A stretch of DNA of 64,000 nt from Xanthobacter sp. YC-JY1 (GTDB lineage Bacteria; Pseudomonadota; Alphaproteobacteria; Rhizobiales; Xanthobacteraceae). A program made the translations under genes and the position numbers. Positions 12,745-35,476 of this stretch are shown in pieces. The DNA lies in assembly GCF_021730305.1 (NCBI RefSeq), contig NZ_CP032674.1, positions 2,837,001 to 2,901,000 on the forward strand, in the 5' to 3' direction. Numbering within the stretch: the stretch's first letter is position 1; the number at the start of each line of letters is the position of its first letter. The notes under the pieces were generated by a model. That model was not told the DNA's origin, did no database searches, and worked only from the letters and a program-made list of their open reading frames with translations.

Positions 12745-12865
12745 TACATCGGGGGTCTGAAGTCGGTGCGTAGCAGTGGCCGGTTCGCGCACACCCCGGG
12801 GGGCTGGGGGGCTGGGATAGACCGGAGCGCCTCGCGAACCGGCCCTGCTACACGAAGAAAGATCG
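12716..12865 (-). ncRNA. Candidate structured small RNA (minus strand)
   Basis: Read on the minus strand, a 19-bp helix with one bulged A joins 12834-12852 to 12770-12789 (arms GTAGCAG-GGCCGGTTCGCG and CGCGAACCGGCC-A-CTGCTAC). It encloses about 43 bases with two CCCCCC runs. After a 25-base linker comes a classic terminator hairpin at 12724-12744 with eight U. It lacks the signal recognition particle RNA core and the RNase P motifs. It may be 6S-like or a trans-acting RNA with C-rich, anti-Shine-Dalgarno-like loops. The 5' end is uncertain and I see no consensus promoter. Confidence 0.55.
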
Positions 12866-13083
12866 CGCCGGCCCGCGGCACGCGATTGGCCGAATTCCGG
12901 CGACACTGTGATTCCATTGACGTTGGCGTGATAGGTATCTAGATGCCATCCGGAGATCGGGAGCAGCCGGCTACGGATTGGCCTTGAAAGGGCTCGCCGG
13001 CAGAGGGATCATGTGGAAATGCAAGCGTCCCAACCCCGGCAGCCCCGCTGGAAAGTGACGCCAGACAAGGACAAGGAGGCCCG

Positions 13084-16806: not shown

Positions 16807-18497
16807 GCACGTGCCCCTTCATGAAGGAGAGATGAATTGGGCTCGGCGGCGACATCCGCCCCCGCGCACTTGAGCCCCGCCAGATGGTCGGCAAGCCGCA
16901 GCCCGAGGGCCACCGCAACAAACGTGGGATTGGCCTGTCCCGACGACGGCAGCACCGAGCTTCCCGCCACGAACAGATTTTCGACGCCATGAACCCGGCA
17001 CTGGGCATCGACCACCCCGTCGGAGGGCGTCGCGGCCATGCGGGTGGTGCCCGCCTGATGGAAGCCATCCGCGGCCTGGTCGAGCACCGCCGCCAGACGT
17101 GCCTCTCGATCGGCCTGGCGGTAGATCAGCTGCCCCACCCCGCCACGCTGCAAGGCTGCATCGATGAGCTCGTGGGAGCGCACGACGGATTCCGCATCCC
17201 CGTGCGCAAATCTCAGGTCCACGTCCAGATAGGGCATGCCCAGAGCATCGAAGCGATCGGAAAGGACCACCCGCGAAGCAGAATGCGGCGCGTGCTCCCC
17301 GTGATAGTGCAGCGAATAACGACCCGCCCTATTGCGGACGATGAAGCCCGGTTGACGAGGTTTGGTGAGGAAACGGGCTCGCAGGATTTTCAGGATGCCC
17401 GACAAGGTTCCGAATGGTGAGCGCAGCACGTTCCGGACGTGGCGCCCCCAGTGGCGCGGCTGGCCGCCGACGTGCGCAACCCGGACCCCCTCCGAAGCAA
17501 GCCGGCGTCCAACCGGGGCGAAGGCCAATGCACACCAAACCAGCGAAAGCACACCATTGCCATGCTCGTGCTGGTGGAATGGCGGATTATCGATCCAGAA
17601 GGCGGTGTTCAGCACCCCCTCCCGCATCTGTGTCTCGCCCGGCAGGTTCATACGCCGCCGAACATAGGCGCCCTCATCTTGGAAGAAATCATGGTCTGCG
17701 ACCGAGGTTGGATCGGCCAGCACGATCTCGGCAATCTTGCCGGAGATGTGCCCCATGTAGGTCCGGCCCAGAGGCCCCCCAACGCCCCCGAAGGCGCGCG
17801 GATGCGATCTCTGAGACACAAGGAGAAGTCGCGCCGTTTCCAGACCGCCACAGGCCAGCACTGTGAGCGGAGGCGTGATCCGCAGGGAGCCCAAGGCGCC
17901 GCCAACCGTGAGAGACTCGACCCGCCGCTCATTGGCATCGAGATGCACGGCGGTGACGGCGGCCCCGAGAACCACGGTGATGCGACGAGACGTTTCGAGG
18001 CGCCTGCGATGCAGGACACCCATGTTGATCTGAGGCGTCCATCGCTCCAGGCGCTGGAACTCCACGTCTCCTAGCGAGCCGACCGCGGAAAGCGCGGTGA
18101 AGCGCGCCGGCCCGATCCCGAAATAGGCGGAGGCCCGCGCGTAATAGGTCTCGATTTCGGCGTGGGGAATGGGCCAGACCGCATCCGGCACGGACGGCCG
18201 ATGGGCAAAGTCGATGTCATCGAATGGGACGCATCGCCCGCCCCACCAGCGCGATGTGCCCCCCAAGGCGCGGCACATGGCGATGTCCGTCGGCGCGTGA
18301 CGCTGCTCATCGACCTTGTGGCCGGCACCGAGGCCCGCCGCGAAAGCGTCGGGCTGCTCCTGGCCCGCCTCCAGGAGCAGAACGCTCAGGCCAGCCTCCT
18401 CACACGCCAGCGCCACGGCAATGCCCACGGGGCCGCTGCCGACGACGCAGACGTCGTGCGGCGGAAGGCCCGACAATTGGCCGAGAGAGACGAACAT
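16803..18497 (-). CDS. GMC family FAD oxidoreductase
   Basis: This 564-aa protein has an N-terminal FAD motif VCVVGSGPVGIAVALACEEA and an ALGGTSRWWGGRC segment. The C-terminal GMC domain shows GTTRMAATPSDGVVDAQCRV and NLFVAGSSVLPSSGQANPTF, including the conserved His/Asn-side region. Such flavoenzymes oxidise an alcohol, often on a sugar or cyclitol. It sits between a WcaF-type acetyltransferase and an aldo/keto reductase, all coupled, so it probably modifies a sugar of the polysaccharide or its lipid-linked precursor. No signal peptide is seen, so it should be cytoplasmic. Confidence 0.85.
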   Translation of the reverse strand: MFVSLGQLSGLPPHDVCVVGSGPVGIAVALACEEAGLSVLLLEAGQEQPDAFAAGLGAGHKVDEQRHAPTDIAMCRALGGTSRWWGGRCVPFDDIDFAHRPSVPDAVWPIPHAEIETYYARASAYFGIGPARFTALSAVGSLGDVEFQRLERWTPQINMGVLHRRRLETSRRITVVLGAAVTAVHLDANERRVESLTVGGALGSLRITPPLTVLACGGLETARLLLVSQRSHPRAFGGVGGPLGRTYMGHISGKIAEIVLADPTSVADHDFFQDEGAYVRRRMNLPGETQMREGVLNTAFWIDNPPFHQHEHGNGVLSLVWCALAFAPVGRRLASEGVRVAHVGGQPRHWGRHVRNVLRSPFGTLSGILKILRARFLTKPRQPGFIVRNRAGRYSLHYHGEHAPHSASRVVLSDRFDALGMPYLDVDLRFAHGDAESVVRSHELIDAALQRGGVGQLIYRQADREARLAAVLDQAADGFHQAGTTRMAATPSDGVVDAQCRVHGVENLFVAGSSVLPSSGQANPTFVAVALGLRLADHLAGLKCAGADVAAEPNSSLLHEGARA

Positions 18498-18509
18498 TTC
18501 TGCCGCGCC

Positions 18510-19097
18510 CTAGTTGGGACAATCGGGGAAGCGAACGTTCCGGGGCTTGATCGCCTTGGCCGGATTGCCCACGTAGACCGTCCAGGGTTCGAGATTCTTG
18601 AAGGCGCAAGACCTCGCCCCCAGCACCGCACCCCGTCCCACCGTCACGCCCGGTCCCACGAAAGCCTGCGCTGCCACCCAAGCCCGGGCCTCGATCCTGA
18701 TCGGCGCCGAGCGCAGCTGGAAATTGACGTCCTCGATGTCATGCGTGCCGGCGCAGATGTAGGCGCCCTGCGAGACCAGGGCATAGGGCTCGAGCACGAT
18801 GCGGCCCATGGAATAGACCGTCACATCAGGCCCGATGAAGGCGTAGTCACCCACCTCGAGATTGGCCGGAGACCAGATTCGCGCGCTCGGATAGATCCCG
18901 GCCGTGGGGGCGATCGTCGCGCCGAACCCGCGCAGGATCATGCGCCTCCACCCGTGCCACTTCGGCAGGGTCCACCGCGCCAGCAGCAGCCACGTGATGC
19001 GAAATGCCGTGCGGTGAAGAAGGTTCGCCAGGGTGAAGCTGGACCCGCCACGCCAAGTATCCACCCGGCTCGCATCAAGAATATCTCTATCGCTCAT
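18510..19097 (-). CDS. WcaF-like acetyltransferase (left-handed beta helix)
   Basis: This 195-aa protein resembles colanic-acid WcaF-type O-acetyltransferases. It has a hydrophobic N-terminal helix region (ITWLLLARWTLPKWHGWRRM) and hexapeptide repeats (IYPSARIWSPANLEVGDYAF, then SMGRIVLEPYALVSQGAYIC, GTHDI, VGPGVTVGRGAVLGA). The GTHD histidine segment is the usual catalytic site. It probably acetylates a sugar residue of the repeat unit. It is 12 bases upstream of the GMC gene in the same operon. Confidence 0.85.
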   Translation of the reverse strand: MSDRDILDASRVDTWRGGSSFTLANLLHRTAFRITWLLLARWTLPKWHGWRRMILRGFGATIAPTAGIYPSARIWSPANLEVGDYAFIGPDVTVYSMGRIVLEPYALVSQGAYICAGTHDIEDVNFQLRSAPIRIEARAWVAAQAFVGPGVTVGRGAVLGARSCAFKNLEPWTVYVGNPAKAIKPRNVRFPDCPN

Positions 19098-19131
19098 AGC
19101 TTGGCCTCACCCCTCATCCCTGACGCCCGTC

Positions 19132-20121
19132 TCACCGGAATTGATCGGCGGAGGAGAGATAGTCCTTGACGTAGCGGGTCAGCCCCTCTTCCAGGCCCGT
19201 GGTCGGCCGGTTATAGCCGGCCGCCGCGAGCTTATCGAGCGCCGCGCAGGTGTAATACTGGTACTTGCCCTTGAGGCTCTGCGGAAGATCGATGAACTCG
19301 ACACGTTCCTCGACGCCCATGGCCGAAAATACGATCTTGGCCTTGTCTAGGAACGAGCGGGCGGATCCCGACCCGACATTGTAGAGGCCGGACTTCACGC
19401 CTTGGGTCTTCAGCGCCCATAGCGCGACATCAACGCAGTCGTCGACCCACACGAAATCCCGCAATTGCTCACCGTCAGCATAGTCGGGATTGTCGGAGCG
19501 GAACAGGCGGACGAAGCCCTTGTCGCGGATCTGCTCGAACAGCTGGACCGCCACCGAGCGCTGGCCGCCCTTGTGGTACTCATTCGGTCCATAGACGTTG
19601 AAGAACTTGAGCCCCGCCCACAGGGGCGGCGTCGGCTCCCCGCGCTTCACCCGGTCAACGACAAAGCGATCGAAGACGTTCTTGCTCCAGCCGTAGGGAT
19701 TGAGCGGCCTCAGGTCGGACAGATAGGCCTCGTCGTCGCGGTCCAGAAAGCCCTGATCGCCATCGCCGTAGGTGGCCGCCGATGAGGCATAGACCAGCGG
19801 GATCTGGTTGGCGGTCGCGAACGTCCACAGGTCGATGGACAGACGCACGTTGTTGTGGACGATCAGGTCCACATCCGTCTCGGTGGTCGTGGAGATGGCA
19901 CCCATGTGGACGATGCCGGCGATCTTGGAGGCGTTGGCCTTCAGGAACGCATCGCACGCCTCCGGGCGCACCAGATCCAGCAGCCGGCGCTTGGCGATGT
20001 TGCGCCATTTGATGTCATTCGTGCCGAGGGTATCGACGATCACGATTTCCTCGCCTGCGGCATCGAGCGCCGCCGCGATGTTCGAGCCGATGAAGCCCGT
20101 CCCGCCGGTAATCACATACAT
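19132..20121 (-). CDS. hldD: ADP-L-glycero-D-manno-heptose 6-epimerase
   Basis: This 329-aa short-chain dehydrogenase-type epimerase has GGTGFIGSNIAAALDAAGEE, the HldD-specific NDIKWRNI, HMGAISTTTETDVDL, YASSAATYGDG and NPYGWSKNVFDRF with the catalytic Tyr/Lys, plus FNVYGPNEYHKGGQRSVAVQ. It makes ADP-L-glycero-D-manno-heptose, the last step of the heptose donor pathway whose hldE gene is 4 kb upstream in the same operon. The intermediate gmhA and gmhB genes are not in the window. Confidence 0.95.
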   Translation of the reverse strand: MYVITGGTGFIGSNIAAALDAAGEEIVIVDTLGTNDIKWRNIAKRRLLDLVRPEACDAFLKANASKIAGIVHMGAISTTTETDVDLIVHNNVRLSIDLWTFATANQIPLVYASSAATYGDGDQGFLDRDDEAYLSDLRPLNPYGWSKNVFDRFVVDRVKRGEPTPPLWAGLKFFNVYGPNEYHKGGQRSVAVQLFEQIRDKGFVRLFRSDNPDYADGEQLRDFVWVDDCVDVALWALKTQGVKSGLYNVGSGSARSFLDKAKIVFSAMGVEERVEFIDLPQSLKGKYQYYTCAALDKLAAAGYNRPTTGLEEGLTRYVKDYLSSADQFR

Positions 20122-20133
20122 GGGTATCGCATC

Positions 20134-21327
20134 CTAAGTTCGGCCGGCCATGGCGTCACGGCATGCGTCGTTGAGATCCTCGGCGGCGCGGCTGACCTCG
20201 AACGAGGACAGGAATATCGCGCGCGCCCGTTCACCGATCACCTGGCGTTCGTCGATGCTGAGAGCGGCAAAGCGGCGCAGCAGGCGGACAACGCCCGGCC
20301 GGTCGTCCTCATCCGCGAAGCCGCCGCCTGCGGTCACCTCACGCCAGATATTGACCTTGTTGGTGATGAAGACCGGCTTGGCGCAGGCCATCGCTTCGGC
20401 CACCACAATCCCGAAGTTCTCCTGGTGTGAAGGCAGGACGAAGGCCTCGCAGCCGTGGAACCCGCCCCACTTGGCATCGCCCCGCAGCATGCCCGGCCAG
20501 TGGATACGGTCGGCGATGCCGCGCCGCTCGGCCTGAGCCTTCAGTTCGGCAAGATAGTCGTCCGAGACCGGGCCGGCCATGACCAGATCGACATCGCCCC
20601 CGTCGCTCGCGATTTCGGCAAAGGCATCGATGAGCAGATCGCAGCCCTTCTTGGGATGGATGCGGCTGAGATAGAGCAGATAGGGGCGCCGAAGGTTGGG
20701 CACCAGCGCGCGAAACGCCTCGGTCTGCCCGGGGCGCAGCGGGCCGGGATCGGAGGTACCGTAGGCCACCACCCGCTCCTTCGCCCGATAGGGCGTGAAG
20801 GACTGACGGGCGAGAATGCGCTCCTCCTCGCTGGTGAAGAGCACGGCCCGCGCATTGTTCACGAGCGGGCCTTCGTTGAACCACCAGAGCGCCTGCTTCA
20901 TCGCGCCCTTGAGGGGGAAGTTCCGTTTGAACCAGGGGTCCAGCATGCCGTGGCTCATCACGAGATAGGGCACGTCCGCGCCCACAAGCGCGGCACGCGC
21001 CCCCACAGTCGAGAAGTTCCAGAGCCCATGGACCGTTACCACATCATAGTCGTGCGTATGGGCCTTCAGCCAAGGGATGAAGGCCGGGCAATAGCCGTAG
21101 CGATGCCAAGGACGCCTCACGCCACCAGAGGTCTTGTCCATCGGCTCGCCGCACGCGAAGACCTTCAGCGGAAAATCCTTCACCCACGGCGCATCCGGCG
21201 GATCGAGACACACCACGTGCTCCTCAACGCCCGCGGATGCGTGGAACGGAGCCTGCTGACGGATGCCCTCGATGGGGCCTCCGTGCCGTGGATCCACGCT
21301 GGCAATGACCCTTAGTCGCAACCGCAT
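20134..21327 (-). CDS. Glycosyltransferase family 4
   Basis: This 397-aa GT-B enzyme has PRHGGPIEGIRQQ at the N-terminus and the GT4 donor-binding half with LYLSRIHPKKGCDLLIDAFA, then FVLPSHQENFGIVVAEAMAC, including the E-x7-E motif. The sugar is unknown. It is 12 bases before hldD, so the two are probably translated from one message. Confidence 0.88.
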   Translation of the reverse strand: MRLRLRVIASVDPRHGGPIEGIRQQAPFHASAGVEEHVVCLDPPDAPWVKDFPLKVFACGEPMDKTSGGVRRPWHRYGYCPAFIPWLKAHTHDYDVVTVHGLWNFSTVGARAALVGADVPYLVMSHGMLDPWFKRNFPLKGAMKQALWWFNEGPLVNNARAVLFTSEEERILARQSFTPYRAKERVVAYGTSDPGPLRPGQTEAFRALVPNLRRPYLLYLSRIHPKKGCDLLIDAFAEIASDGGDVDLVMAGPVSDDYLAELKAQAERRGIADRIHWPGMLRGDAKWGGFHGCEAFVLPSHQENFGIVVAEAMACAKPVFITNKVNIWREVTAGGGFADEDDRPGVVRLLRRFAALSIDERQVIGERARAIFLSSFEVSRAAEDLNDACRDAMAGRT

Positions 21328-21490
21328 TGGAACCCCGAAGATTGAAACATGAAGTGAGTTCCCATGCGCGTTGGGGCGCCAAAGAGAATGTCAGGCATCG
21401 CAAAGTAGATTTGCGACAATATACATTCAAATGACCCCATCGTGGAGCTTATAGTAACTGAGCATGCGGCTGTCGTCGCCATAAGCCGGT

Positions 21491-22783
21491 TCACCGCCCG
21501 AGCATCAGGACAAGCACGGACATGCCACCATGGAGCAGCAGGAGTGCCGCCGCGATGCCGGTGGCCCCTTCCGACAGCGCCCAGCTGTAAGCGAGCACTG
21601 CGCACAAGGCAGTCAGCCCCACGAAAAGATAGGACAAGCGCACATGCCGGTTGATGGCGGCGATTGGTGTGAACAGGCATCCCCACCACATCTCCGCCGC
21701 CACCGCAGCGTTGAGCAGGGCGAAGAACGGGTAGACCACCGCCACGTGGCCATGCGTCCACAATTCCATGACGTAGGGACCGAGCGCCCACAGGCCGAGG
21801 CAGTAGGCGACGATGCCCGCAATACCGATCAGCACATGGATGCGCTTCAGCCTGGCGAAGGCGCTGGTGTTTCCCTGCCCATGCAACCGGGAATATTCGG
21901 GCGCAAAGGAGTAATTGATGAGGTTGGCGGCGGACGTCCCCATGCGCGCCAGGGTCCGGGAGGTGGAGAACAGTACGGTCTCCTGCGCGGTCGCGACCGC
22001 ACCCAGCAGCACGATCGGTCCCTGGATCGCCAGAGCCTGCGCGAGCCCGAGCAGCATGTAGCTGAAAGAGGGATTGGCCATGCGGCGGATCTCGGCGAGC
22101 CGAGCGCCCTTGAGCCCGAGTGGAATGTCCGGCGCCACGCTTCTCAGCCAGATCCACAGGCCGAGCGTGCAGGCGACACGCATCACCAGCACGGCCAGCG
22201 CCGCCAGCTCGACCCGCGTGGTGAGCAGGGCAACGGCTACCGTGGCGATGCCCTCCAGCAGGCGCGACGTCGCACCCCAGGTCACTTCGGCCGCCGGCCG
22301 GCCGGCGGCGCGCACCCCGGCGCACAGTAGAAGGAGGAACTGGTTCACCACCACGCTGCCCACCAGGAAAAGAATGGTGAGCTTGGCAGCGGTCTCGGTG
22401 AGCGGACCAAGAGCGAAAGCCTGCGTCAGCGTGACGGCCTCGATGCCGAGGCCGCAGGCGGCAAGGATAACCGCCGCAGCCACCAGCAGCAGGGCGAAGA
22501 CGCTGTGATAAACCCGCAAGACACCGGCGTGATCGGATGACGCAGCATGCATCACCATGCTGTTCTTTGCCACCAGGGTGAAGCCGAAGTCGCTCAGCGT
22601 GAGATAGCTCGGCACCGCATAGAGCACGAGCCACCCGCCGTAGCGATCCGCCCCCCAGGCGGAGAGCAGGAACGGCACCTGCAACAATTGCACTGCGATG
22701 ATGACGATCTGGTTGTAGATCTGCGCGGTGAAGGTGAAGCCCACCCTGCGGAAGGCGAGAAGGCGGCTCATGTCAGCATGCAC
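21491..22783 (-). CDS. Wzx-like polysaccharide flippase
   Basis: This 430-aa protein has about twelve hydrophobic segments and the MATE/polysaccharide-transporter layout (start MSRLLAFRRVGFTFTAQIYN, then WLVLYAVPSYLTLSDFGF). It would flip a lipid-linked repeat unit across the inner membrane for polymerisation. The ATG at 22783 adds four residues to another possible start at 22771. A 163-base gap separates it from the next gene, with no terminator seen. Confidence 0.8.
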   Translation of the reverse strand: MHADMSRLLAFRRVGFTFTAQIYNQIVIIAVQLLQVPFLLSAWGADRYGGWLVLYAVPSYLTLSDFGFTLVAKNSMVMHAASSDHAGVLRVYHSVFALLLVAAAVILAACGLGIEAVTLTQAFALGPLTETAAKLTILFLVGSVVVNQFLLLLCAGVRAAGRPAAEVTWGATSRLLEGIATVAVALLTTRVELAALAVLVMRVACTLGLWIWLRSVAPDIPLGLKGARLAEIRRMANPSFSYMLLGLAQALAIQGPIVLLGAVATAQETVLFSTSRTLARMGTSAANLINYSFAPEYSRLHGQGNTSAFARLKRIHVLIGIAGIVAYCLGLWALGPYVMELWTHGHVAVVYPFFALLNAAVAAEMWWGCLFTPIAAINRHVRLSYLFVGLTALCAVLAYSWALSEGATGIAAALLLLHGGMSVLVLMLGR

Positions 22784-22843
22784 CTTCTCTGCCGGTCGGC
22801 GGTTGCAGGATAATGGTCCCGATCACAGCGCGCGATCCTTCCG

Positions 22844-23836
22844 TCAACCGAGCAGCTCGGCAACTGCGGACACGACCTGCTCCACGGCGATGGCCCGGAC
22901 GCCGCGCATGTCATGCAATGTCCGGTTATCACCCACGTAGGGATGCCACTTTCGCGGCCGATTGAAGTCTCCGAACAAACCGACGCACGGCACACGCACC
23001 GCCGAGGCGAGATGCAGCGGACCGGAATCGTGCCCGATGAACACTCGCGAGCCCTTGATGGCCGCCGCCGATTCACGCGGCGAGAGCGTGCCGCATTGGT
23101 TGGAGACCGGACCAGGCCAGGCATCGCGCACCGTCTGTACCCGCTCGGCATCCTCGCGCGCGCCGACCACGAGCAGGCCATGGTCCGGCCGGCTTCTGCC
23201 GATCGCCGTCAGAAGCCGGCGCCAGTTATCGATGCCCCAATCCTTCTGCGCCGCCTTGCCGCCCATGTTGATAGCGATGACCGGCGCCCCACCGAGCCCG
23301 GCCACGGCCTGACTGCCGGCAGCGATCTCCGCAGCATCAAGCGAGAGATCCCAATTGGCCTGATCGTGCAGGTCGATGGGGCCGAGGCAGCTGAGCGCAC
23401 GGGCCAGGCGCTCGCATTCCGGCTCCTCCTCCCCCGAGCCCTGCACGACGCGACAGGTGTCGAGATCGCGAGTCCACGGGACGCCGTGCAAATTTCTGAA
23501 GCCGCACAGCCGGAAATAGGCAACGTCCCGATACACCCCTGCAAGGCCGCGGGAGGGCATCAGGTAGATCATGGTGTCTGTTTCAAGCTCCAACAGCCGG
23601 CGCCGCAGATCCCACAGCGCGGCGGGACTGCGCGTGCCGACGGGATAGGAAATGGCCCGGTGAACCAGCGAGGTTCCGAGCACTGTGAGCAAAGGCGCAG
23701 CCTTCGAGGAAATGGGAATGTTGGTAAGCACGATGCGCTCGTGCTCCGGATAAAGCTCGGCGATCCGTCGGAAAAACGGCACGGCGATGATGGTGTCGCC
23801 GAGGCTGCCCAGGCGATAGATGAGTAGGCGCTTCAT
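22844..23836 (-). CDS. Glycosyltransferase family 9 (heptosyltransferase-like)
   Basis: This 330-aa protein has the GT9 pattern: KRLLIYRLGSLGDTIIAVPF at the start, INMGGKAAQKDW in the middle and FIGHDSGPLHLASAVRVPCV, where GT9 enzymes bind the ADP-heptose. Next to hldE, an ADP-heptose donor is likely. It may add heptose to lipopolysaccharide core or to the exported polysaccharide. I cannot tell WaaC, WaaF or WaaQ types apart. Confidence 0.85.
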   Translation of the reverse strand: MKRLLIYRLGSLGDTIIAVPFFRRIAELYPEHERIVLTNIPISSKAAPLLTVLGTSLVHRAISYPVGTRSPAALWDLRRRLLELETDTMIYLMPSRGLAGVYRDVAYFRLCGFRNLHGVPWTRDLDTCRVVQGSGEEEPECERLARALSCLGPIDLHDQANWDLSLDAAEIAAGSQAVAGLGGAPVIAINMGGKAAQKDWGIDNWRRLLTAIGRSRPDHGLLVVGAREDAERVQTVRDAWPGPVSNQCGTLSPRESAAAIKGSRVFIGHDSGPLHLASAVRVPCVGLFGDFNRPRKWHPYVGDNRTLHDMRGVRAIAVEQVVSAVAELLG

Positions 23837-23941
23837 CAGAACAGAATCCCAGGGCGGGGCGGAGCGCGTCCGAAAGCAGAGGCCATTCAGCTGGAGCGCG
23901 CTTGGGAGAGCAGGGTAGAAAGGGGCGGCGCGAGAGGCTTC

Positions 23942-25426
23942 TCAGACGGCGGGAGCGGTCGCTTCGGACTCAGCCCCCTCCCTCATGCGGCGTATCGTGT
24001 TTGTCGTACTGCGCCCAGGCACCAGCTCGAACCGTAGCACCCGTCCGCCGCGCGCCAGCACGCTGTCGGCACCCACGATTTCGGAGACCTGGTAGTCGGC
24101 CCCCTTCACCAGTACGTCGGGCTTCAGCTCTTCAATCAATTCCTTGGGCGTGTCCTCCTCGAACACCACCACCAGATCGACAGACCCAAGGGCAGCGATC
24201 ACCTGCGCGCGGTCGGTCTCGCTGTTCACCGGCCGCGTCGGCCCCTTGAGGCGTTTAACGGAGGAATCGGCGTTCACCGCCACGACGAGGCGATCGCAGT
24301 TCGCTCGCGAAAACTCGAGGATGCCCACATGGCCGACATGCAGCACATCGAAACAGCCATTGGTGAAGCCCACGGCAAGTCCGTGCCGTTGCCAGGCCGC
24401 AACCTGCGCAGCCGCGTCCTTGCGCGACACCACCTTTACCAAAGAGGGTGGCCCTTCGGACGGGCTTTGCCTGTCGAGCTCTACGATTAGCTCGGCGCGC
24501 GAGACTGTAGCGGTGCCGCGCTTGGCCACCACCACCCCCGCCGCCGCATTGGCGATAAAGGCCGCCTCCTCCAGTGGACCGCCAGCGCCGATAACAAGGG
24601 AAAGGGCAGCGATAACCGTATCGCCAGCACCGACCACGTCGGCCACTTCGCGCGCCGCCGTCGGGATATGCACTGGTTCACCCGTCCTCTGGACAAGAGT
24701 CATCCCCTTCTCCGAACGCGTGACAAGCACGGCGCCGATGTTGGTATCGGCCAGCACCTTACGGCCGGCGGCGACAGCGGATGCGTCGTCATCACCCTGA
24801 ATGCCGGTGGCCATCCAGACTTCATGCAGATTGGGCGTGACGAGCGTGGCGCCATCGTAGCGCGAGAGGTTTGAAGTCTTCGGATCAACGATGATGGGCG
24901 CCCCACGGCGGGTCGCGACTTCCACGGCCCGCTGAATCACCCGGGGCGTCAGCACCCCCTTGGCGTAGTCCGACAGCACCAGCACGTCGTGCTCCGGCAG
25001 CGCGGCCACGACCTGCGCGATGATCGCGTCCTCGATCTCCTCCGCCACAGGAGAGCTGTCCTCACTATCCGAGCGCAGCATGTGCTGGCCTTGGGCGACG
25101 AAGCGCACTTTTTCCGTCGTGGGGCGGGACGGCGAGGCCAGGAACATGGACACGACCCCGGGAGTCTCATCGACGATCCGACGCAACTCGGCACCGCCCG
25201 CATCCGCGCCCGTGACGCCGATGAGCGTGCACTGCCCCCCGAGCGAGGCAATGTTGCGTGCCACGTTGGCGGAGCCGCCCGCGATGGTGGTCGAACCGGT
25301 CACGGAGAGGACCGGGACGGGGCTCTCCGGCGAGATGCGACGGGCCGATCCCGTCACAAAGCGGTCGAGCATCACATCGCCGAGGCACAGGACACGCACG
25401 CGCGGGAAAGAATCAATAATGGACAT
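23942..25426 (-). CDS. hldE: Bifunctional heptose 7-phosphate kinase / heptose 1-phosphate adenylyltransferase
   Basis: This 494-aa fusion protein has a PfkB-type kinase domain (RRISPESPVPVLSVTGSTTI, AGGSANVARNIASLGG, then VADVVGAGDTVIAALSLVIG) followed by a nucleotidyltransferase domain (GFTNGCFDVLHVGHVGILEF, DSSVKRLKGPTRPVNSETDR, ending VPGRSTTNTIRRM). It performs two steps of ADP-heptose synthesis. The ATG at 25426 follows GAGGGGGCGAG and begins the conserved domain; an upstream ATG at 25477 is less likely. Confidence 0.96.
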   Translation of the reverse strand: MSIIDSFPRVRVLCLGDVMLDRFVTGSARRISPESPVPVLSVTGSTTIAGGSANVARNIASLGGQCTLIGVTGADAGGAELRRIVDETPGVVSMFLASPSRPTTEKVRFVAQGQHMLRSDSEDSSPVAEEIEDAIIAQVVAALPEHDVLVLSDYAKGVLTPRVIQRAVEVATRRGAPIIVDPKTSNLSRYDGATLVTPNLHEVWMATGIQGDDDASAVAAGRKVLADTNIGAVLVTRSEKGMTLVQRTGEPVHIPTAAREVADVVGAGDTVIAALSLVIGAGGPLEEAAFIANAAAGVVVAKRGTATVSRAELIVELDRQSPSEGPPSLVKVVSRKDAAAQVAAWQRHGLAVGFTNGCFDVLHVGHVGILEFSRANCDRLVVAVNADSSVKRLKGPTRPVNSETDRAQVIAALGSVDLVVVFEEDTPKELIEELKPDVLVKGADYQVSEIVGADSVLARGGRVLRFELVPGRSTTNTIRRMREGAESEATAPAV

Positions 25427-25529
25427 CTCGCCCCCTCGAAGTGACCAGACCGCTCGGCTGGCAACATCCTGTTCCAAATGTGGGCCCTGCGCCCTTGCGA
25501 CGTACCATCTGCGGCACCATGGAATCCCT

Positions 25530-27296
25530 TCAACGCCACGCTGGTCCGGCCGGCGTCGACAGCCGCAGGTCGCCCCACCTGAGGGTTTTCACGCTCGCGC
25601 CCATCCCGGTGGAAACCAAGTCTCGCTCCGAGGCCTGGGCGGCCTCGATGTCCGCCACCGCGATGTTTTCGTCTACCGGACCCAGCGTCACGCTCGCAGT
25701 CAGGAGGGTTGAACCCAACCGCTCGGGAGAGATGTGGCCGTTGAGCGGAATCGCCAATTCCGCCGCGGCCAGCCCTGCCTCGGTCCGCACGGTCCAGCGA
25801 CCCGACATGTCCACGCCGTCGAACATGCAGGGGCCGCCGCGCACCACGGCCTTCCAGTTCTGGCACGCGAGGACGAAGACACCGGCATCGAGCTGCTCGG
25901 CATGGGCACCCGCGCCTTCAACGGACACGCGAAAAACGAGGGACTTTCCCGGATAGCCGGATCGCGAGCGGTCGGCGGATACGTGCCTGTCACCACTGTT
26001 GATGACGGGATAGCAGGCGATGAGAACGCTGCGTTCCTTCTGCTGCGCCCTTATGCCGAAAGACGCGAAATCATATCCGTCCTTCATCACACGCGCGCGG
26101 AACACGGCCGGCTTGGGCAAGGCCTTCCAATAGCCGATCAGGGGACGAGCCTGGACCCAGCAATTTCCGATTGACGCGCTCCCCAAGCAAACGTCCTGTT
26201 CGAGCCACGTGGTACTCCATAACTCCTCGCCGGATTCGGGAAAGCTCCGCACACGCTCCCGAACGTTCCGAGGCAGCGGGTTCCGGTCCGTGAAATAGAC
26301 CTGCAAATCCTCCGGACAGGGAAGCATGTTCCAGCTCGGCGGCTGCAAGGGAAGATTGCGATCGACGACCTCCCGACCCAACCGAACAGCCACCTGCGAC
26401 CATAAAAGCGGCGTCAGCAGGTCTGCATAATACCGGCTATGCGGACCAGCCCATTGCCCAGTCGCGGGATGGAAATGGAACGCGACGACCTCCCAAGCCG
26501 ATCGCCAAAGAGAGCGCAGCGACTGGAAGGGCGCCTGATCGCCAAGATAATGAATCGAACTTTCGAACTCACTCAATGCGGTGAGCGTGTAGGTCGGGCT
26601 ATTATATTCAACAAATCCACCCTGATCACGCGTGTATCGAAAGAACCGATCAAGCAGATTTGCACCGTATGCGGACAAATCGGGCCGGCCCAAAAGACGG
26701 CCGCTCATGGCGGTCACGCGAATGGCCATCGACACCACATTGGTCGCATCGAGACCGACATTGCGGCGCATGATGCAACCGCAAGCATGGTTCAAGGCAG
26801 ATCGTGCACGCTCGGTCGCTTCGGCATCCAGCAGCTCGGAATGGTTCCAGAGCATCTCGCAGTATCTGGCACCTATGAAGTTCGCCCAGTTGAGATCGGG
26901 TGGGCGCATTGCAGAAAGCGGCTCTTCCGCAAACCATGGCCACGTCCCATAGGTCGGGCTAGCCTGATCTACATCTTGTAGCTGCGCCATACGCTCGATG
27001 ATCCGGGCGATGCGATGCCTTGCCTCCGGCTGGCCGTAATCTGCCAACGCAACGGCGTAGTCCATGCTGTCGCGCGTCGGGTGAACCTGCATTGCCTCCG
27101 TTGTCAACGTAGCGTAGCCAGGTCCTCCACCGTGCCGAACAAGGAGCCCGGCAACTTCGTCCCACCGCGTCGGCGCCATCCGCTTGTCAACGCTGTAGCC
27201 AGGCTCTGCTGCTGCAGGATCGATGGTCAGGCCAAAGAGACCTCCCAGCAGAGAGCCCGATAGCAGCTCCAGAATTTCTCTGCGTTGCAGCTTCAT
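25530..27296 (-). CDS. Tat-exported protein of unknown function, possible alpha/alpha-toroid
   Basis: This 588-aa protein begins MKLQRREILELLSGSLLGGL with a twin-arginine and hydrophobic core, so export is likely. The middle has regular helical stretches and aromatic-rich segments (YGTWPWFAEEPLSAM, NWANFIGARYCEMLW, GGFVEYNSPTYTLTALSEFE), which recall heparinase-like or other alpha/alpha-toroid polysaccharide lyases. The last 200 residues look beta-rich. I do not recognise a named family. In the middle of the polysaccharide operon it may trim or degrade the polymer in the periplasm; this is inference. Confidence 0.65.
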   Translation of the reverse strand: MKLQRREILELLSGSLLGGLFGLTIDPAAAEPGYSVDKRMAPTRWDEVAGLLVRHGGGPGYATLTTEAMQVHPTRDSMDYAVALADYGQPEARHRIARIIERMAQLQDVDQASPTYGTWPWFAEEPLSAMRPPDLNWANFIGARYCEMLWNHSELLDAEATERARSALNHACGCIMRRNVGLDATNVVSMAIRVTAMSGRLLGRPDLSAYGANLLDRFFRYTRDQGGFVEYNSPTYTLTALSEFESSIHYLGDQAPFQSLRSLWRSAWEVVAFHFHPATGQWAGPHSRYYADLLTPLLWSQVAVRLGREVVDRNLPLQPPSWNMLPCPEDLQVYFTDRNPLPRNVRERVRSFPESGEELWSTTWLEQDVCLGSASIGNCWVQARPLIGYWKALPKPAVFRARVMKDGYDFASFGIRAQQKERSVLIACYPVINSGDRHVSADRSRSGYPGKSLVFRVSVEGAGAHAEQLDAGVFVLACQNWKAVVRGGPCMFDGVDMSGRWTVRTEAGLAAAELAIPLNGHISPERLGSTLLTASVTLGPVDENIAVADIEAAQASERDLVSTGMGASVKTLRWGDLRLSTPAGPAWR

Positions 27297-27360
27297 GAAT
27301 CAAGCTCCGCCCAGAACCGTTGCAGGCTCAAGCGAGGAAAAAGCGCGACGGACTTTCTTG

Positions 27361-28833
27361 TCATTGGGATTGCGCCCCCTCTTGCGGAGGCTTGGCAATT
27401 CCCATGGCATCGAGCGCGACCTTCACAACGACAGCAAACGCCACGATAAACAGTAGGTTACGAAAAATATAAATAAATACGCCCGATAAATCAGCCTCTA
27501 CGATAATAAGAAAAGACGTCCCTATAAAGAGCCCGAAAGGATTTCCGAACAATGGACCAGACAGGCCATTGAGAATTACAAAAAGAATCAAAACAGCGAT
27601 GCCGGGCAAAAAAAGCACGCCCAAGCCACCACCGACCGCGAAAGAACTCGCAACCAAGCCAACTACCGGCCGAGCAACAATCCCACGGGCACGGAAATTG
27701 TAAAACCAGGCAATCTCATCAACGGAAGCGGCAGCACTCTTGGTCACCAAGAAAGATGGCAAGACGCTGGACCACACATTTAATGCATCAAACCCCATTT
27801 CCCCTACGGTTTCCGAACCACTCACCACAAGGTTAATAGGGTGGATCAAGCACAGACGGTCAATGTTGAGCATAAATGGAAAAAAATAGTTTAGCCTCGG
27901 ATCACTCGAAGCACCATAACCCGCCAGGACAGCCTCCGACTGCGCCTGCAATTCGAAAGGATCGAATGATGCCCGCTCCATTACCTCATACGCCAGATCC
28001 AAACGCTCCAAGATCGGCAATTCTTTCGCCTGACCGCGTGTAATGTGAATTGCAGGGGAAACATAAAACATCAAAATGAAAGTCAACGCACCACCAAGTA
28101 CAGCTTCACGGATAATATTGATCCTGGATTTGTTCATCAGGAACACAACGAACGCAGCCGATATACTCGCAATAAAAGACTGTTTTACATTTCCCGCCAA
28201 TGACACAAACATGATTATCAAAAGCATTCCGCCCAAACGAGCAATACCGCGCCGACTACCGTGTCGGTCAGAAAACGCTAGCGACGCTTCGCAGACCACC
28301 GCAAATATCGTTATGAAATAAAACGTGCCAAAAAATCCAATTCCTTCACCGCTATCAACGGCCACTTGCGTCGCCACAGGCCGAAGAAAAACATGCAACG
28401 TATCAAACGCAATCCCAATTGGAAAAAAAATCGAAACGCATTTACCAAGTATGGCATCGTCCGATAGATAAGATGACATTTCCCTTGAAAATTTAAACCT
28501 GAAACCAATATTACGCGAAACGACATATGCAACAGTTATAGACATAAATCCGGCCAGAATAACAACGGATGCCAAATCTGGGACATCTAGATTTTCATCG
28601 ACCGGCTGCAAAAGAGCGGTTTTAATTACCAAAGCAAACGTTCCATAATATAAAATAAACAAGAAATATAGAATATCACCCGCACGATGATCTCGAATTG
28701 ACAAGGAAAAGCAGCCGCAAATGGATATAAGGTAAAGTGATAAAATCACAAAAATATTCGCGCCCATAAAAATCTGGACGCACGCGAGGGCGGTAACAAG
28801 ACAAAAGTAAATGACAGGTGCGGTCGACTTCAT
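27361..28833 (-). CDS. Putative Wzy-like polysaccharide polymerase (multi-pass membrane protein)
   Basis: This 490-aa protein has about ten or more membrane segments and a large loop around residues 300-400, the pattern of O-antigen or exopolysaccharide polymerases, which have little sequence conservation. Its position between glycosyltransferases and a flippase supports this. Its base composition is clearly more A/T-rich than the flanking genes (for example 27420-27560 and 28400-28780), and codon use differs too, a sign of acquisition from elsewhere. A second polymerase/ligase candidate is at 46150. Confidence 0.7.
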   Translation of the reverse strand: MKSTAPVIYFCLVTALACVQIFMGANIFVILSLYLISICGCFSLSIRDHRAGDILYFLFILYYGTFALVIKTALLQPVDENLDVPDLASVVILAGFMSITVAYVVSRNIGFRFKFSREMSSYLSDDAILGKCVSIFFPIGIAFDTLHVFLRPVATQVAVDSGEGIGFFGTFYFITIFAVVCEASLAFSDRHGSRRGIARLGGMLLIIMFVSLAGNVKQSFIASISAAFVVFLMNKSRINIIREAVLGGALTFILMFYVSPAIHITRGQAKELPILERLDLAYEVMERASFDPFELQAQSEAVLAGYGASSDPRLNYFFPFMLNIDRLCLIHPINLVVSGSETVGEMGFDALNVWSSVLPSFLVTKSAAASVDEIAWFYNFRARGIVARPVVGLVASSFAVGGGLGVLFLPGIAVLILFVILNGLSGPLFGNPFGLFIGTSFLIIVEADLSGVFIYIFRNLLFIVAFAVVVKVALDAMGIAKPPQEGAQSQ

Positions 28834-28913
28834 TTTACCACCCTTAATTCAGCGCCCTGTCACGATCGCTACTCGACACAAATTCGCTCCTATTGCGCCG
28901 CGCGAAAGTCGCA

Positions 28914-30131
28914 TTAGCTTCGCTGTACAAAAAGCACTTGCTCCATTTTATCCATCGCTCCCTTCTCGGACAAGGTCGCAGCAAGAGCGAGGCATTGCTC
29001 GCGGGTTTCCGCCACAGCGCCCGCGGCGTGCGCACTCAGAGCATCGGCCATCGCGCGCGGATCTCCCGGCGTAACAAGGGTCGCGGCGCCGACGAGGAAG
29101 TCGGCAAGTTCGGTTCCCGGCTCGGCCGTGACCAAGATCGGCCGGCCGCTCGCCAGCATGCCGCCGAGCTTGGACGGCAGCACCAGATCCGCTGCGCTCG
29201 CCTGCTGCGGCAGAAGGTGCAGGTCGCACAGGCTCAGGAACTCGGGCAGACGGGCATAGGGCTGGAACGGCAGGAAATGCACGTTGGGAAGGCCCGCCGC
29301 CTGCCGCTGTAGGTCTGCTAGCGAGGGCCCCTCGCCCGCGATGGCGAAGACGATGTCGGAGCTGTCCGACAGCTGTCTCGCGGCCTCGACCACCACGTCA
29401 AGCCCCTGCTTGGGGCCGATGTTGCCGGAATAGAGCGCCACGAAGGCATCGCGCGGCAGGCCAAGCTCCTCGCGATAGGCATAGGCCGTCGGAAGGGGAC
29501 GAACGTGGCCGAGATCGACCCAGTTGCGCACCAAGGCAATGCGCTCCTCGGGAATACCCTTCTGAGCGATCCGCTCCGCCATGCGCTGAGAGATGGTGAC
29601 GATGGTGTCGAACCGCGACAGGCAAAAACGCTCGAACGCCGCAGCGAGCCGCTTCAGCCCCCCTGCACCGCCCAAATGCCCCACCGCGAAGGCCGCATCC
29701 ACTTCCAGATCCTGCACATGCAGCACGGTGCGCGCGCCGGTCAGCCATGCCGAGAGCAGCACGAACGGGGCCGCAAAGAGCGTCGGCTCGATGGAAAGCA
29801 CGGTGTCCGGCCGCCGGCGCAGCGCCCGCCACAGCGTCACAGGGGCTGAAGAGGCGGCGAACGACATGGGCGCGATCAAGCGCCAAATGCCGCCCATGGC
29901 GGACCTGACCAGCACGGGACAGCGGTAGAGCCGTGCACCGTCTCGCTCTTCTGTGGAATAGCGGTTGCGATAAGGGGCCTTCACCGTCCAGCCGGGGTAA
30001 TGGGGCGGCGCGGTCACCACCTCAACCTCATGGCCGCGGCCAGCCATGAGCGCCACCAGCTCTCCGGTGTATTTGCCGCAGCCTGTGAGTTCCGGTGCGT
30101 GGTTCATGGCAGAGACGAGGAGCTTGCCCAT
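28914..30131 (-). CDS. Glycosyltransferase family 4, WcaI-like
   Basis: This 405-aa protein begins MGKLLVSAMNHAPELTGCGK, close to the start of colanic-acid WcaI, and has the GT4 donor half (VALYSGNIGPKQGLDVVVEA, FLPFQPYARLPEFLSLCDLH, LVLPSKLGGMLASGRPILVT). WcaI is thought to transfer fucose. With the GDP-fucose genes fcl and gmd just upstream this fits, but donor specificity is inference. Confidence 0.85.
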   Translation of the reverse strand: MGKLLVSAMNHAPELTGCGKYTGELVALMAGRGHEVEVVTAPPHYPGWTVKAPYRNRYSTEERDGARLYRCPVLVRSAMGGIWRLIAPMSFAASSAPVTLWRALRRRPDTVLSIEPTLFAAPFVLLSAWLTGARTVLHVQDLEVDAAFAVGHLGGAGGLKRLAAAFERFCLSRFDTIVTISQRMAERIAQKGIPEERIALVRNWVDLGHVRPLPTAYAYREELGLPRDAFVALYSGNIGPKQGLDVVVEAARQLSDSSDIVFAIAGEGPSLADLQRQAAGLPNVHFLPFQPYARLPEFLSLCDLHLLPQQASAADLVLPSKLGGMLASGRPILVTAEPGTELADFLVGAATLVTPGDPRAMADALSAHAAGAVAETREQCLALAATLSEKGAMDKMEQVLFVQRS

Positions 30132-30169
30132 TTAAATTCCGTTCTTGACGCGCGCCTGTCGCCGCAGCC

Positions 30170-31126
30170 TCAGCTCGCGGCCCTGAGCGCGCCCTGGTTC
30201 TCCAGGAACCAGCGGTAGCTCGCTGAAATGCCCTCGCGCAGGGGGATGGAGGGCGCCCAGCCGAGCGCACGCAGGCGGTCCGCGCTCATCAGCTTGCGCG
30301 GCGTGCCATCGGGCTTGGAGAGGTCGTGCACGATCTCGCCGGTAAAGCCCACCACGTCGCAGACCGTGCGGGTCAGCTCCAGGATCGTCACGTCGTCGCC
30401 CGAGCCCACGTTGACGTGGGTGTCGTCCGAATAGGCCTTCATCAGAAGCACACAGGCGTCGGCGCAATCGTCCACGTGGAGGAACTCGCGGCGGGGCGTT
30501 CCCGTGCCCCACATGACGATTTCCTTGTCGCCCCGCAGCTTCGCCTCATGCGCCTTGCGGATGAGCGCCGGCATCACGTGACTGGAATTGAGGTCGAAAT
30601 TGTCGCCCGGCCCGTAGAGGTTGGTCGGCATGGCCGAGATGAAGTCACTGCCGTGCTGTCGACGGTAGGCCTGCGCCAGCTTGATGCCGGCGATCTTGGC
30701 CACCGCGTACCATTCATTGGTCGGCTCAAGCGGCCCAGTGAGCAGGGAATCCTCGATGATGGGCTGCGGCGCCATCTTGGGGTAGATGCACGACGACCCC
30801 AGAAACAGCAGCTTTTCGACACCGAAGCGGTGAGAGGCCTCGATGATGTTCGCCTCGATCATCAGGTTGTCATAGAGAAAATCGGCCGGATAAGTGTCGT
30901 TGGCGAGGATGCCGCCGACTTTCGCCGCGGCCAGGAACACCGCGTTCGGCCGGGTCCGTTCCAAGAAAGCGCGCACGGCAGCCTGGTCCTTCAGGTCCAC
31001 TTCGGAGCGGGACGCAGTAATGACCTCGCACCCCTCCCGTCCCAGCCGTCGAACGATGGCCGAGCCCACCATGCCGCGATGGCCGGCGACCCAGACTTTC
31101 TTGCCCTCGAGCGCGTAGGACCCCAT
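30170..31126 (-). CDS. fcl: GDP-L-fucose synthase
   Basis: This 318-aa epimerase/reductase converts GDP-4-keto-6-deoxymannose to GDP-L-fucose. Seen: VWVAGHRGMVGSAIVRRLGR, FLAAAKVGGILANDTYPADF, FLGSSCIYPKMAPQPI, EWYAVAKIAGIKLAQAYRRQ with the YxxxK pair, and VMWGTGTPRREFLHVDD. It starts one base after the gmd stop codon, so the two are coupled. Confidence 0.96.
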   Translation of the reverse strand: MGSYALEGKKVWVAGHRGMVGSAIVRRLGREGCEVITASRSEVDLKDQAAVRAFLERTRPNAVFLAAAKVGGILANDTYPADFLYDNLMIEANIIEASHRFGVEKLLFLGSSCIYPKMAPQPIIEDSLLTGPLEPTNEWYAVAKIAGIKLAQAYRRQHGSDFISAMPTNLYGPGDNFDLNSSHVMPALIRKAHEAKLRGDKEIVMWGTGTPRREFLHVDDCADACVLLMKAYSDDTHVNVGSGDDVTILELTRTVCDVVGFTGEIVHDLSKPDGTPRKLMSADRLRALGWAPSIPLREGISASYRWFLENQGALRAAS

Positions 31127-31127
31127 C

Positions 31128-32210
31128 TCAGGCTTCCTTCATGACGGTCGAGGTCTGCATAACCTTGAGGTCCTCGGCGACCATCTCGCGGCAGAGCTCA
31201 CGCACCGAGGTCTCGTGGCTCCAGCCCAACTTCTCGTGGGCCTTCTTGGGATTGCCAATGAGCAGATCCACCTCGGTGGGGCGGAAGTAGCGCGGGTCGA
31301 CCTCGACGAGGCAGCGGCCCGACAGCTTGTCGTAGCCCTTCTCCTCCACGCCGCTGCCGCGCCACTCCAGCTCGATGCCCACGTCCTCGAATGCCCATTG
31401 AACGAATTGGCGCACCTCCGTGGTCTCGCCAGTGGCGAGCACGTAGTCGTCGGCGGTTTCCTGCTGAAGGATCAGCCACATGCCGCGCACATACTCGCGG
31501 GCATGGCCCCAGTCGCGCTTGGCGTCGAGATTGCCGAGGTAGAGCTTTTGCTGCTTGCCGTGCCGGATCGCGGCGACCGCGCGGGTGATCTTGCGGGTGA
31601 CGAAGGTCTCACCGCGCAGCGGGCTCTCATGGTTGAACAGGATCCCGTTGGAGGCGTGCATCCCGTAGGCTTCGCGGTAGTTCACCACGATCCAATAGGC
31701 ATAGAGCTTGGCCGCCGCGTAGGGGCTGCGAGGATAGAACGGCGTGGTCTCGGACTGCGGCACTTCCTGCACCAGCCCGTACAGCTCTGACGTTGAGGCC
31801 TGATAGAAGCGCGTCTTCTTCTCAAGGCCCAGGATCCGGATGGCTTCGAGGAGGCGCAGAGCGCCGATCGCATCGGCATTGGCCGTGTATTCCGGCGTCT
31901 CGAAGGACACCTGCACGTGGCTCTGCGCCGCAAGGTTGTAGATTTCGTCCGGCTGACACTGCTGCACAACCCGGATCAGGTTGGTTGAGTCGGTCATGTC
32001 CCCGTAGTGCAGGACGAACCGCGGATCGGCCTCGTGCGGGTCCTGGTAGATGTGCTCGATGCGCCCGGTGTTGAAGGATGAGGAGCGGCGCTTGATGCCG
32101 TGAACGGTGTATCCCTTCGCGAGCAGCAACTCTGCCAGGTAGGCGCCATCTTGACCGGTCACGCCGGTGAGAAGTGCAACCTTGCCGTTGGACGGAACCT
32201 TCACGGACAT
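31128..32210 (-). CDS. gmd: GDP-mannose 4,6-dehydratase
   Basis: This 360-aa enzyme is the first step from GDP-mannose to GDP-fucose. Seen: [85 protein letters not shown] with YxxxK, and [18 protein letters not shown]. It is the first gene of the long minus-strand polysaccharide operon. Its 5' leader of about 206 bases contains a GGCCCGGCC-rich stretch (32234-32280 on the plus strand) and an ops-like element (32324-32335). Confidence 0.97.
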
Positions 32211-32323
32211 TTATCGCCTCACTTTATGCTAATAGCTCCGCAGCGGCCCGGCCCATCCGGCCCGGCCCCGCCCGGCCCCCAAATACCCAGAACTCGCGTA
32301 GGACGCACGCCGCCGCGACATGG

Positions 32324-32335
32324 CGCGCTACCGCA
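32324..32335 (-). promoter_or_regulatory. ops-like element upstream of gmd
   Basis: Read on the minus strand the sequence is TGCGGTAGCGCG. It matches 10 of 12 bases of the enterobacterial ops element (GGCGGTAGCGTG) that recruits the NusG paralogue RfaH to paused RNA polymerase. It lies between the nusG-like gene and gmd, 113 bases before the gmd ATG, in the right orientation. The JUMPstart segment found upstream of enterobacterial ops is not present. Confidence 0.45.
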
Positions 32336-32416
32336 CTGCGGGTGAAACGACAGCGTCGCTCCGCCCAACTTTATCTTCGCACGACACCCGCAATACGTGC
32401 GTACAACACGGTAAAC

Positions 32417-32943
32417 TCAACCCGCCGGAGCGAGCACATATCGGCAAATCTTCGATCGGACGCTACAGTTCATCAATGACAGAAGCAACGCGACGCACTT
32501 CCGACCATCCAGTCTTTCGAAAATGCCGCGCCCGCCGGCACGCGGCCCGGACACCAAGCGAACCGGATCGCCCTTCTTCAAGCTGCCGTCGACGACAGTG
32601 ATGCCGTCGTTGGCCGTGGCGGCCACCATCGCTTCCACTCCCCATGCGGAACCGGCTGCGGACGCTCGCGCGCCATCACTGTACCGGGCACACCCAAAGT
32701 GCTGTTGATGGATCGCCAGCGGCGACGATCAGGATCTAAGCGCGCGAAACCATAGCGAGGAAACATGAAGGCACGGATGGTTTCGATCCGAAGGGCGCGC
32801 CGCCACGCTTGCCACATCCGGGGGAAGAACACCTCGAAACCCTGGCGATCGAGCTGCCCCTGCGCCACCGCCTCCATGCGCGGGAGCGCATAGATCACAT
32901 GCCAGCGCGGCCGGGCGACCATGAGGAAGGAGGGAAGCGTCAT
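32417..32943 (-). pseudogene. NusG/RfaH-type antiterminator, frameshifted
   Basis: Two frames make one NusG paralogue. The first, from the ATG at 32943, encodes the NGN domain (PRWHVIYALPRMEAVAQGQL, GFEVFFPRMWQAWRR, FPRYGFARLDPDRRRWRSIN, STLGVPGTV). The second holds the rest with a KOW domain (VEAMVAATANDG, LKKGDPVRLVSGPRAGG, then KCVALLLSLMN). They join at a run of four C (plus strand 32640-32643): one lost base there needs a -1 shift. The gene lies directly upstream of the polysaccharide operon, as RfaH/LoaP/UpxY-type operon-specific factors often do. It may be truly broken, a sequencing error, or corrected by slippage on the G-run. Confidence 0.8.
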
Positions 32944-35391: not shown

Positions 35392-35476
35392 GCCGCATTG
35401 CCGCCCGGCCGCACTCCTTGTGCAACGGGCAGCCGCATTGCGGTAGACTGCCTCGTTCCAACGCCAGGCGCCTTCC

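Follow-up and report, generated by a model that had tools for sequence, protein, structure and literature searches.

In Escherichia coli, ops is a site at which RNA polymerase pauses and at which the non-template strand forms a small DNA hairpin. The T6 pocket of RfaH, the NusG paralogue of the E. coli RfaH/ops system, comprises residues H20, R23, Q24 and R73 (PMC5995543), and loss of E48 frees RfaH from ops (PMC7593976, PMC13015549). The gammaproteobacterial JUMPstart RNA (RF01707; PMC2864571) carries a stem-loop directly before an ops core in the leaders of polysaccharide operons. In the UpxY, LoaP and TaA systems a NusG paralogue is encoded together with the operon that it serves, and the recruitment of such cis-encoded paralogues to polymerase is described as unknown (PMC7593976). 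Monomorphic RfaH homologues, reported in a preprint (PMC13015549), have a predicted NusG-like beta KOW domain and a gene beside a long operon. RfaH proteins have been reported in Alphaproteobacteria, and ops-like sequences pause diverse polymerases (PMC7593976). No description of an alphaproteobacterial ops, or of a hairpin of the kind considered below, was found in the literature searched, a search that left out supplements and most subscription journals.

The operon and its surroundings

The locus studied here lies in a stretch of 64,000 nucleotides of Xanthobacter sp. YC-JY1, referred to below as the window; its genome is a single contig of 5.39 Mb and 99.99% complete. As originally predicted for a 17-kb polysaccharide operon, gmd is followed by a minus-strand run of genes to position 14928, with which reading frames and Pfam matches agree (Table 1). 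The frames of this run are long and unbroken as listed and belong to sugar-nucleotide, glycosyltransferase, transferase and oxidoreductase families, except for three long frames (27364-28833, 25533-27296 and 21315-22634, minus strand) that have no Pfam match at E 0.001. The counterparts of the first two in the congener G009 share 42% and 55% identity, respectively. Divergent from the operon and adjoining it, UDP-glucose/GDP-mannose dehydrogenase and ManC-type genes are located at 34063-36928 (plus strand), and they stand beside gmd in G009 too. An Rfam match to the sRNA BjrC174 (57.5 bits, gathering threshold 45) occupies 12719-12932 on the minus strand, 3' of the operon end.

Table 1. Features of the locus in the window (positions counted from the first nucleotide of the window)
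Feature	Position	Strand	Evidence and remarks
NGN (RNA-polymerase-binding) half of RfaH-like NusG paralogue	32581..32943	-	Pfam NusG E 1e-12; TIGR01955 RfaH 56 bits; stop at 32578
KOW half, open-frame stretch out of frame with NGN half	32420..32701	-	TIGR01955 positions 103-152, 23 bits; relatives' KOW profile 40 bits
Hairpin-ops element: RNA stem-loop, then GCGGTAGC	32323..32368	-	R1 32.5 bits, E 5e-8 in window; predicted stem
ops-like 12-mer TGCGGTAGCGCG	32324..32335	-	GCGGTAGC core intact; position 11 is C, mostly T in relatives
gmd, GDP-mannose 4,6-dehydratase	31128..32210	-	Operon's first gene; Pfam E 1.6e-158
Remainder of presumed polysaccharide operon	14928..31126	-	Epimerases, glycosyltransferases, HldE-like, hexapeptide transferase, GMC oxidoreductase, aldo/keto reductase, 3 frames without Pfam match

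A hairpin-ops element in the operon leader

The predicted minus-strand 12-mer at 32335-32324, which shares 10 of 12 letters with E. coli ops, is present and forms the end of a 46-nt element, so placed that its GCGGTAGC core belongs to the leader of the long polysaccharide operon. Taken alone the 12-mer is weak, because the window contains ten two-mismatch ops sites (none with fewer mismatches) and its total of sites with up to three mismatches, 129, is as in shuffled sequences (118 +/- 10). The ten two-mismatch sites would fit a chance match in a G+C-rich leader; against this stand the length of the element, its stem, its placement as in relatives and the lack of any other good match in the genome, so that chance was rejected as an explanation and is retained only as a very remote prospect. 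When the 5.39-Mb genome was scanned with the covariance model R1, which was trained on 54 family relatives with the window left out, the element of the window (E 4.3e-6) was the sole match with E < 0.1, the next having E 0.18. Despite the weak 12-mer, the element was judged to be real because of these R1 results and of a word count in relatives.

For this count, 100 same-family loci with relatives of the NGN piece were considered, of which 99 matched and 98 extended far enough downstream. The commonest 8-mer in the 350 nt past the paralogue stops was GCGGTAGC, found in 65 of the 98 loci where 1.0 would be expected, and ops had not been used as a query; counting the window, 34 of 100 loci lack the word in that interval. 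A query with ops itself, allowing two mismatches and including the window, gave 64 matches in the 500 nt downstream (6.9 expected) and four upstream of the gene (7.0 expected). The nearest relative, G256 (52% identity over NGN), carries a perfect E. coli ops, GGCGGTAGCGTG, with 12 of 12 letters.

Alignment of the sites shows a stem, with TTCACCCG or GTCACCCG as its 3' arm, and after it a short linker, the word GCGGTAGC, a single unconstrained base and then T and G. The GCGGTAGC columns of alignment A1 are invariant by selection, since its sites were seeded on that word, and the class set, in which each of these columns is kept in 54-58 of 58 rows, was found with a model seeded on the same word and favouring it. 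Of the alignments behind the covariation scores given below, A2 includes two weak antisense matches and A4 one.

The stem is supported by a pairing test that is independent of the model fit. Among 57 non-redundant sequences, the window included, the mean pairing score of each upstream arm with its own partner was 19.6, compared with 17.0 +/- 0.3 for swapped arms (0 of 500 permutations as high) and 12.8 for shuffled upstream arms. The covariation score at loci of other families of the class was 0.245 versus 0.116 +/- 0.012 (0 of 500 shuffles), and in the family set 0.213 versus 0.111, in alignments that were fitted to the model and so favour it, and in which relatedness inflates the score too. 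When the arms were slid by one to three columns, a control that keeps relatedness, the class score was at most 0.075. Pairs with a double change were not more numerous in the family set than in shuffles (7 versus 6.0; 147 of 500).

In the window, the element folded as a whole is predicted to form a long stem (z -1.9) interrupted by a single mismatch; by z this stem is weaker than those of loci L113, L131 and L066 and better than that of L123. The pairing-test score of the window stem, 13.0, is close to the shuffled mean, in a test whose fixed segments omitted bases next to the loop.

Two tandem hairpin-ops elements (3537-3581 and 3776-3821) follow one paralogue in L323 of Bradyrhizobium retamae. 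The alphaproteobacterial form of the element was also found after the paralogue in L296 and L310, from bins labelled Gammaproteobacteria, which may be mislabelled bins or cases of transfer.

The NusG/RfaH-like gene of the window is split and diverged

The original prediction placed a NusG/RfaH-type gene at 32943-32417 and treated it as intact. Its NGN domain was confirmed (Pfam NusG E 1e-12), but those coordinates span 527 nt, which is no multiple of three and thus not one reading frame, and the gene proved to be split and degraded, with two frames and 11 of 34 conserved columns changed. The frame beginning at 32943 contains the NGN domain and has 121 codons before the stop at 32578. Codon-position bias is lost past about 32.82 kb and returns in a shifted phase from about 32.64 kb. 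NGN and KOW domains within one protein, as in the RfaH equivalog, are found in intact relatives, whereas in the window they occupy separate frames, with both pieces (56 and 23 bits) below the curated TIGR01955 cut-off of 144.5 bits. Over the whole genome, NusG/RfaH matches comprised the housekeeping NusG and the two pieces of the split gene, and no further RfaH-like gene was found.

Six of the changed columns lie in NGN and five in KOW. Among the 116 relatives used for comparison, the median number of changed columns is one and the maximum among full-length proteins is six, with one truncated frame also having 11; one of the residues changed in the window protein is an arginine present in 116 of 116 relatives. 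The NGN half scores 91.9 bits (lowest three of 29 class relatives: 51.0, 95.5 and 103.5) and the KOW half 40.2 bits (lowest three: 39.4, 42.8 and 45.4), so that each half is outscored by about 28 of the 29. At the positions by which RfaH contacts ops (K10, H20, R23, Q24 and R73), only R23 and Q24 are kept, and an A occupies the position of E48.

Since the regulator is split and has lost conserved residues while the element retains its core and predicted stem, this copy probably no longer acts and, judging from the sequence, is most likely a relic. The frame change could be an assembly error, and it is conceivable that the module works here, the frameshift being either a sequencing error or bypassed by programmed frameshifting. 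Such a reading can draw on the position of the frame change near a short G run and on a KOW half that is still recognizable, in a one-contig genome of 99.99% completeness. We consider it unlikely, as the 11 changed conserved columns, the universally kept arginine among them, go beyond those of any full-length relative and would be left unexplained by a sequencing error, and as the listed gene frames of the operon are long and unbroken.

The paralogue protein in intact relatives

With the RfaH model, three intact relatives obtain 105-115 bits; the NusG model gives them 33-58 bits, and the scores of the UpxY and LoaP models on them are also lower than that of the RfaH model. The RfaH equivalog cut-off (TIGR01955, 144.5 bits) was reached in none of 385 genomes of the class. 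Residue counts cover 29 proteins from the class and, of the 99 from the family, the 87 that are complete and 150-200 aa long. Q24 is kept in all 87 family proteins and in 26 of the 29 from the class, R23 in 70 and 18, and an N or H stands at position 20 of 83 and 27, respectively. R73 is kept far less often (8 of 87 and 9 of 29) and K10 in none of the 116 relatives. RfaH positions 66-67 are mostly WR rather than TT, with W66 present in 87 of 87 family and 28 of 29 class proteins.

E48 is present in none of the 87 family proteins and in 3 of the 29 from the class. An AlphaFold2 model of the Nitrobacter relative, built with 46 sequences, has a beta-barrel KOW (pLDDT 91.9, pTM 0.68). Its alignment with polymerase-bound, active RfaH extends over 167 columns, similarly to its alignments with several NusG structures, and that with autoinhibited RfaH covers 94-96. 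An autoinhibited, alpha-helical KOW that needs E48 was thus not found, judging by the E48 counts and this one predicted structure. These data suggest that the relatives' protein is not autoinhibited, as far as the model goes, and yet adjoins an ops signal.

Pairing of element and paralogue across genomes

Within the family, the element lies 16-239 nt past the paralogue stop on the same strand in 67 of 99 loci (at most 71 nt in 64), a count that is not independent, as these loci supplied the 54 training sites, and that includes one element with only E 0.057. Adjacency was also found in 42 of 80 named loci, which had been kept from 567 by a protein-pattern search with alignment A6 of relatives. 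In these, the element lies 14-283 nt past the stop; 27 are unlike any training sequence and one has only E 0.026. They include loci of Nitrobacter, Bradyrhizobium, Rhodospirillales and two bins labelled Gammaproteobacteria. A similar search for related loci with the window piece found no relative. Searches of plasmids with proteins yielded relatives of less than 60% identity (61 records with the window piece, 166 with the G256 protein), and a DNA search with the leader gave no match in plasmids and none in 13 congeners.

At the level of genomes, the element (E <= 0.001) was detected in 88 of 391 family genomes, training genomes included: 84 also had a paralogue, 21 had a paralogue only, four the element only and 282 neither. 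Some of the 105 family paralogue matches are weak and may be housekeeping NusG. Across the class, the element was found in 54 of 385 sampled alphaproteobacterial genomes, including that of the window. In the other 384, element (E 0.001) and paralogue (more than 80 bits, a cut-off picked after the list was seen) occur in 53 and 86 genomes, respectively, with both in 48, element only in five, paralogue only in 38 and neither in 293 (Fisher p 1.4e-31). All 53 belong to families other than the training family.

The pairing is not universal, as no element lies just past the paralogue in 32 of 99 family and 38 of 80 named loci, and 38 of the 86 class genomes with a paralogue have no element. The conservation at a fixed place that had been proposed as a check of the original prediction therefore holds for the 67 family and 42 named loci and fails for the remainder of the gene-keeping relatives.

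An alternative is that the element acts alone, as a pause or hairpin signal in the leader that works with the housekeeping NusG or serves ribosome timing, leaving the paralogue dispensable. The retention of the element while the gene decays would agree with this, as would the few genomes with an element and no paralogue match (five in the class, four in the family) and the pausing of diverse polymerases by ops-like sequences (PMC7593976). Its strong tracking of the paralogue makes this quite unlikely: of 286 family genomes without a paralogue match only four carry the element, at E 6e-5 to 8e-4, in searches with filters that lose weak matches.

The intact systems may also act mainly in trans, like E. 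coli RfaH, with the cis arrangement being incidental. Among 57 class elements, 25 lie 18-112 nt past a paralogue stop and 32 are not directly 3' of a paralogue, with 1.5-2 kb inspected on each side; 28 have no paralogue in the fetched sequence and one has a paralogue fragment 1.6 kb upstream. Several genomes have the element kilobases from the paralogue or on another contig. Weighing against action in trans are the 64 of 99 family paralogues with an element within 71 nt of the stop, the beta-barrel KOW of the one modelled relative and the rarity of E48 (0 of 87 and 3 of 29), and we regard it as doubtful, though a possibility to be kept in mind. For three of the 57, in loci L200, L208 and L209 of one other family, a paralogue is found some 0.8 kb upstream but reads in the opposite direction.

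The first same-strand frame after the element was taken from 57 of the 65 site-bearing family loci; among these frames are matches to Polysacc_synt_2 (16) and Epimerase (16), which are overlapping families, Gfo/Idh/MocA (15), cytidylyltransferase (4) and NeuB (2). Ten of the 21 class loci in which a paralogue is adjacent gave eight first genes that match sugar epimerase, DegT aminotransferase, ABC-2 transporter or aldo/keto reductase families and two that were unmatched; for 25 of the 32 class elements not beside a paralogue, they include five epimerases or Polysacc_synt_2 proteins and four DegT aminotransferases, but also unexpected ones such as a MORN-repeat protein. Given these first genes, the module appears to serve surface-sugar operons of several kinds, with a paralogue perhaps acting in trans on some of the elements.

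Congeners

Neither the element nor the paralogue was found in any of the 13 congeners; a weak protein match in G007 was rejected as a paralogue, as it sits at the place of the housekeeping NusG. G009 keeps the gene order from UDP-sugar dehydrogenase through gmd (94%), epimerase (93%) and glycosyltransferase (86%) to a heptosyltransferase-like gene, as far as fetched, and the roughly 920 nt between its UDP-sugar dehydrogenase and gmd contain no paralogue and no element. The operon can hence persist without the module. Either G009 lost the module or the genome of the window gained it, and the sequence is compatible with both.

Comparison with known systems and proposed mechanism

The alphaproteobacterial module resembles E. 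coli RfaH/ops (PMC5995543, PMC7819879) in having an NGN and KOW paralogue nearer to the RfaH than to the NusG model, the GCGGTAGC core, a polysaccharide operon, Q24, mostly R23, and H or N at position 20. It differs from this system in that the gene often stands directly before its own operon, K10 is never and R73 seldom kept, E48 is nearly absent, WR replaces TT, the KOW of the one relative modelled is a beta-barrel and the class proteins fall below the equivalog cut-off.

With JUMPstart (PMC2864571) it shares its site in polysaccharide-operon leaders and a stem-loop that immediately precedes the ops core, found in the relatives and, by the predicted fold (z -1.9), in the window. The stem of the alphaproteobacterial element has another sequence and is longer. 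The JUMPstart of E. coli K-12, which scores 60 bits with Rfam, is also where R1 lands in that sequence, at 13 bits (E 0.003 in 5 kb) that stem largely from the core. Rfam gave no JUMPstart match in the window at the gathering threshold, where only the unrelated BjrC174 was reported, and in six relatives even a limit of E 1 brought up no family.

As with UpxY, LoaP and TaA (PMC7593976), the regulator is encoded with the operon served, whereas here a conserved candidate recruitment signal is present. The monomorphic RfaH homologues of the preprint PMC13015549 are likewise predicted to have a NusG-like beta KOW and stand beside a long operon, but are reported to be active without ops, whereas here the gene is often accompanied by an ops-type hairpin element; in view of that report, the combination of ops with a non-autoinhibited paralogue appears to be new.

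The directly observed properties of the system, namely the conserved element, the covarying stem, the frequent place just past the paralogue, the co-occurrence of the two and the kind of first gene, suggest how intact copies might work. On its way out of the paralogue gene, polymerase would first make a stable RNA hairpin and then pause at GCGGTAGC-N-T-G, where the core in the non-template strand would form a small DNA hairpin by analogy with E. coli ops. The freshly made paralogue would bind this core hairpin through its NGN domain and, if it acts as RfaH does, displace NusG and block Rho-dependent termination in the downstream polysaccharide operon. In the genome of the window the operon would be read without the module, as it necessarily is in G009 if expressed there.

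In our judgement the locus is likely to represent an RfaH/ops-type module of alphaproteobacteria in the course of decay. The kind of system originally predicted is borne out in its RfaH-type paralogue, ops core in the leader and long polysaccharide operon, with the copy in the window being broken. The further proposal that the pair explains read-through of this operon is unsupported, because the gene is split and degraded and because G009 keeps part of the operon without paralogue or element.

A broader proposal, on which we are evenly divided, is that the class has a separate form of RfaH control. In it, a non-autoinhibited, mostly cis-encoded paralogue with its own DNA-reading residues (WR for TT at 66-67) would be recruited by an RNA hairpin fused to an ops core, which would be JUMPstart-like in architecture and not in stem sequence, and the window would hold a module in mid-decay whose signal is outliving its protein. 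From its distribution among the genomes, the control system appears to be widespread in alphaproteobacteria and little described. Because the conserved hairpin-ops signal directly follows the gene in many genera of alphaproteobacteria, it provides a concrete sequence to mutate when asking how cis-encoded paralogues are recruited. Its occurrence together with a KOW predicted to be non-autoinhibited casts doubt on the view that proteins of this kind can do without a signal. The finding may also bear on the reading of polysaccharide operons in rhizobia and related bacteria.
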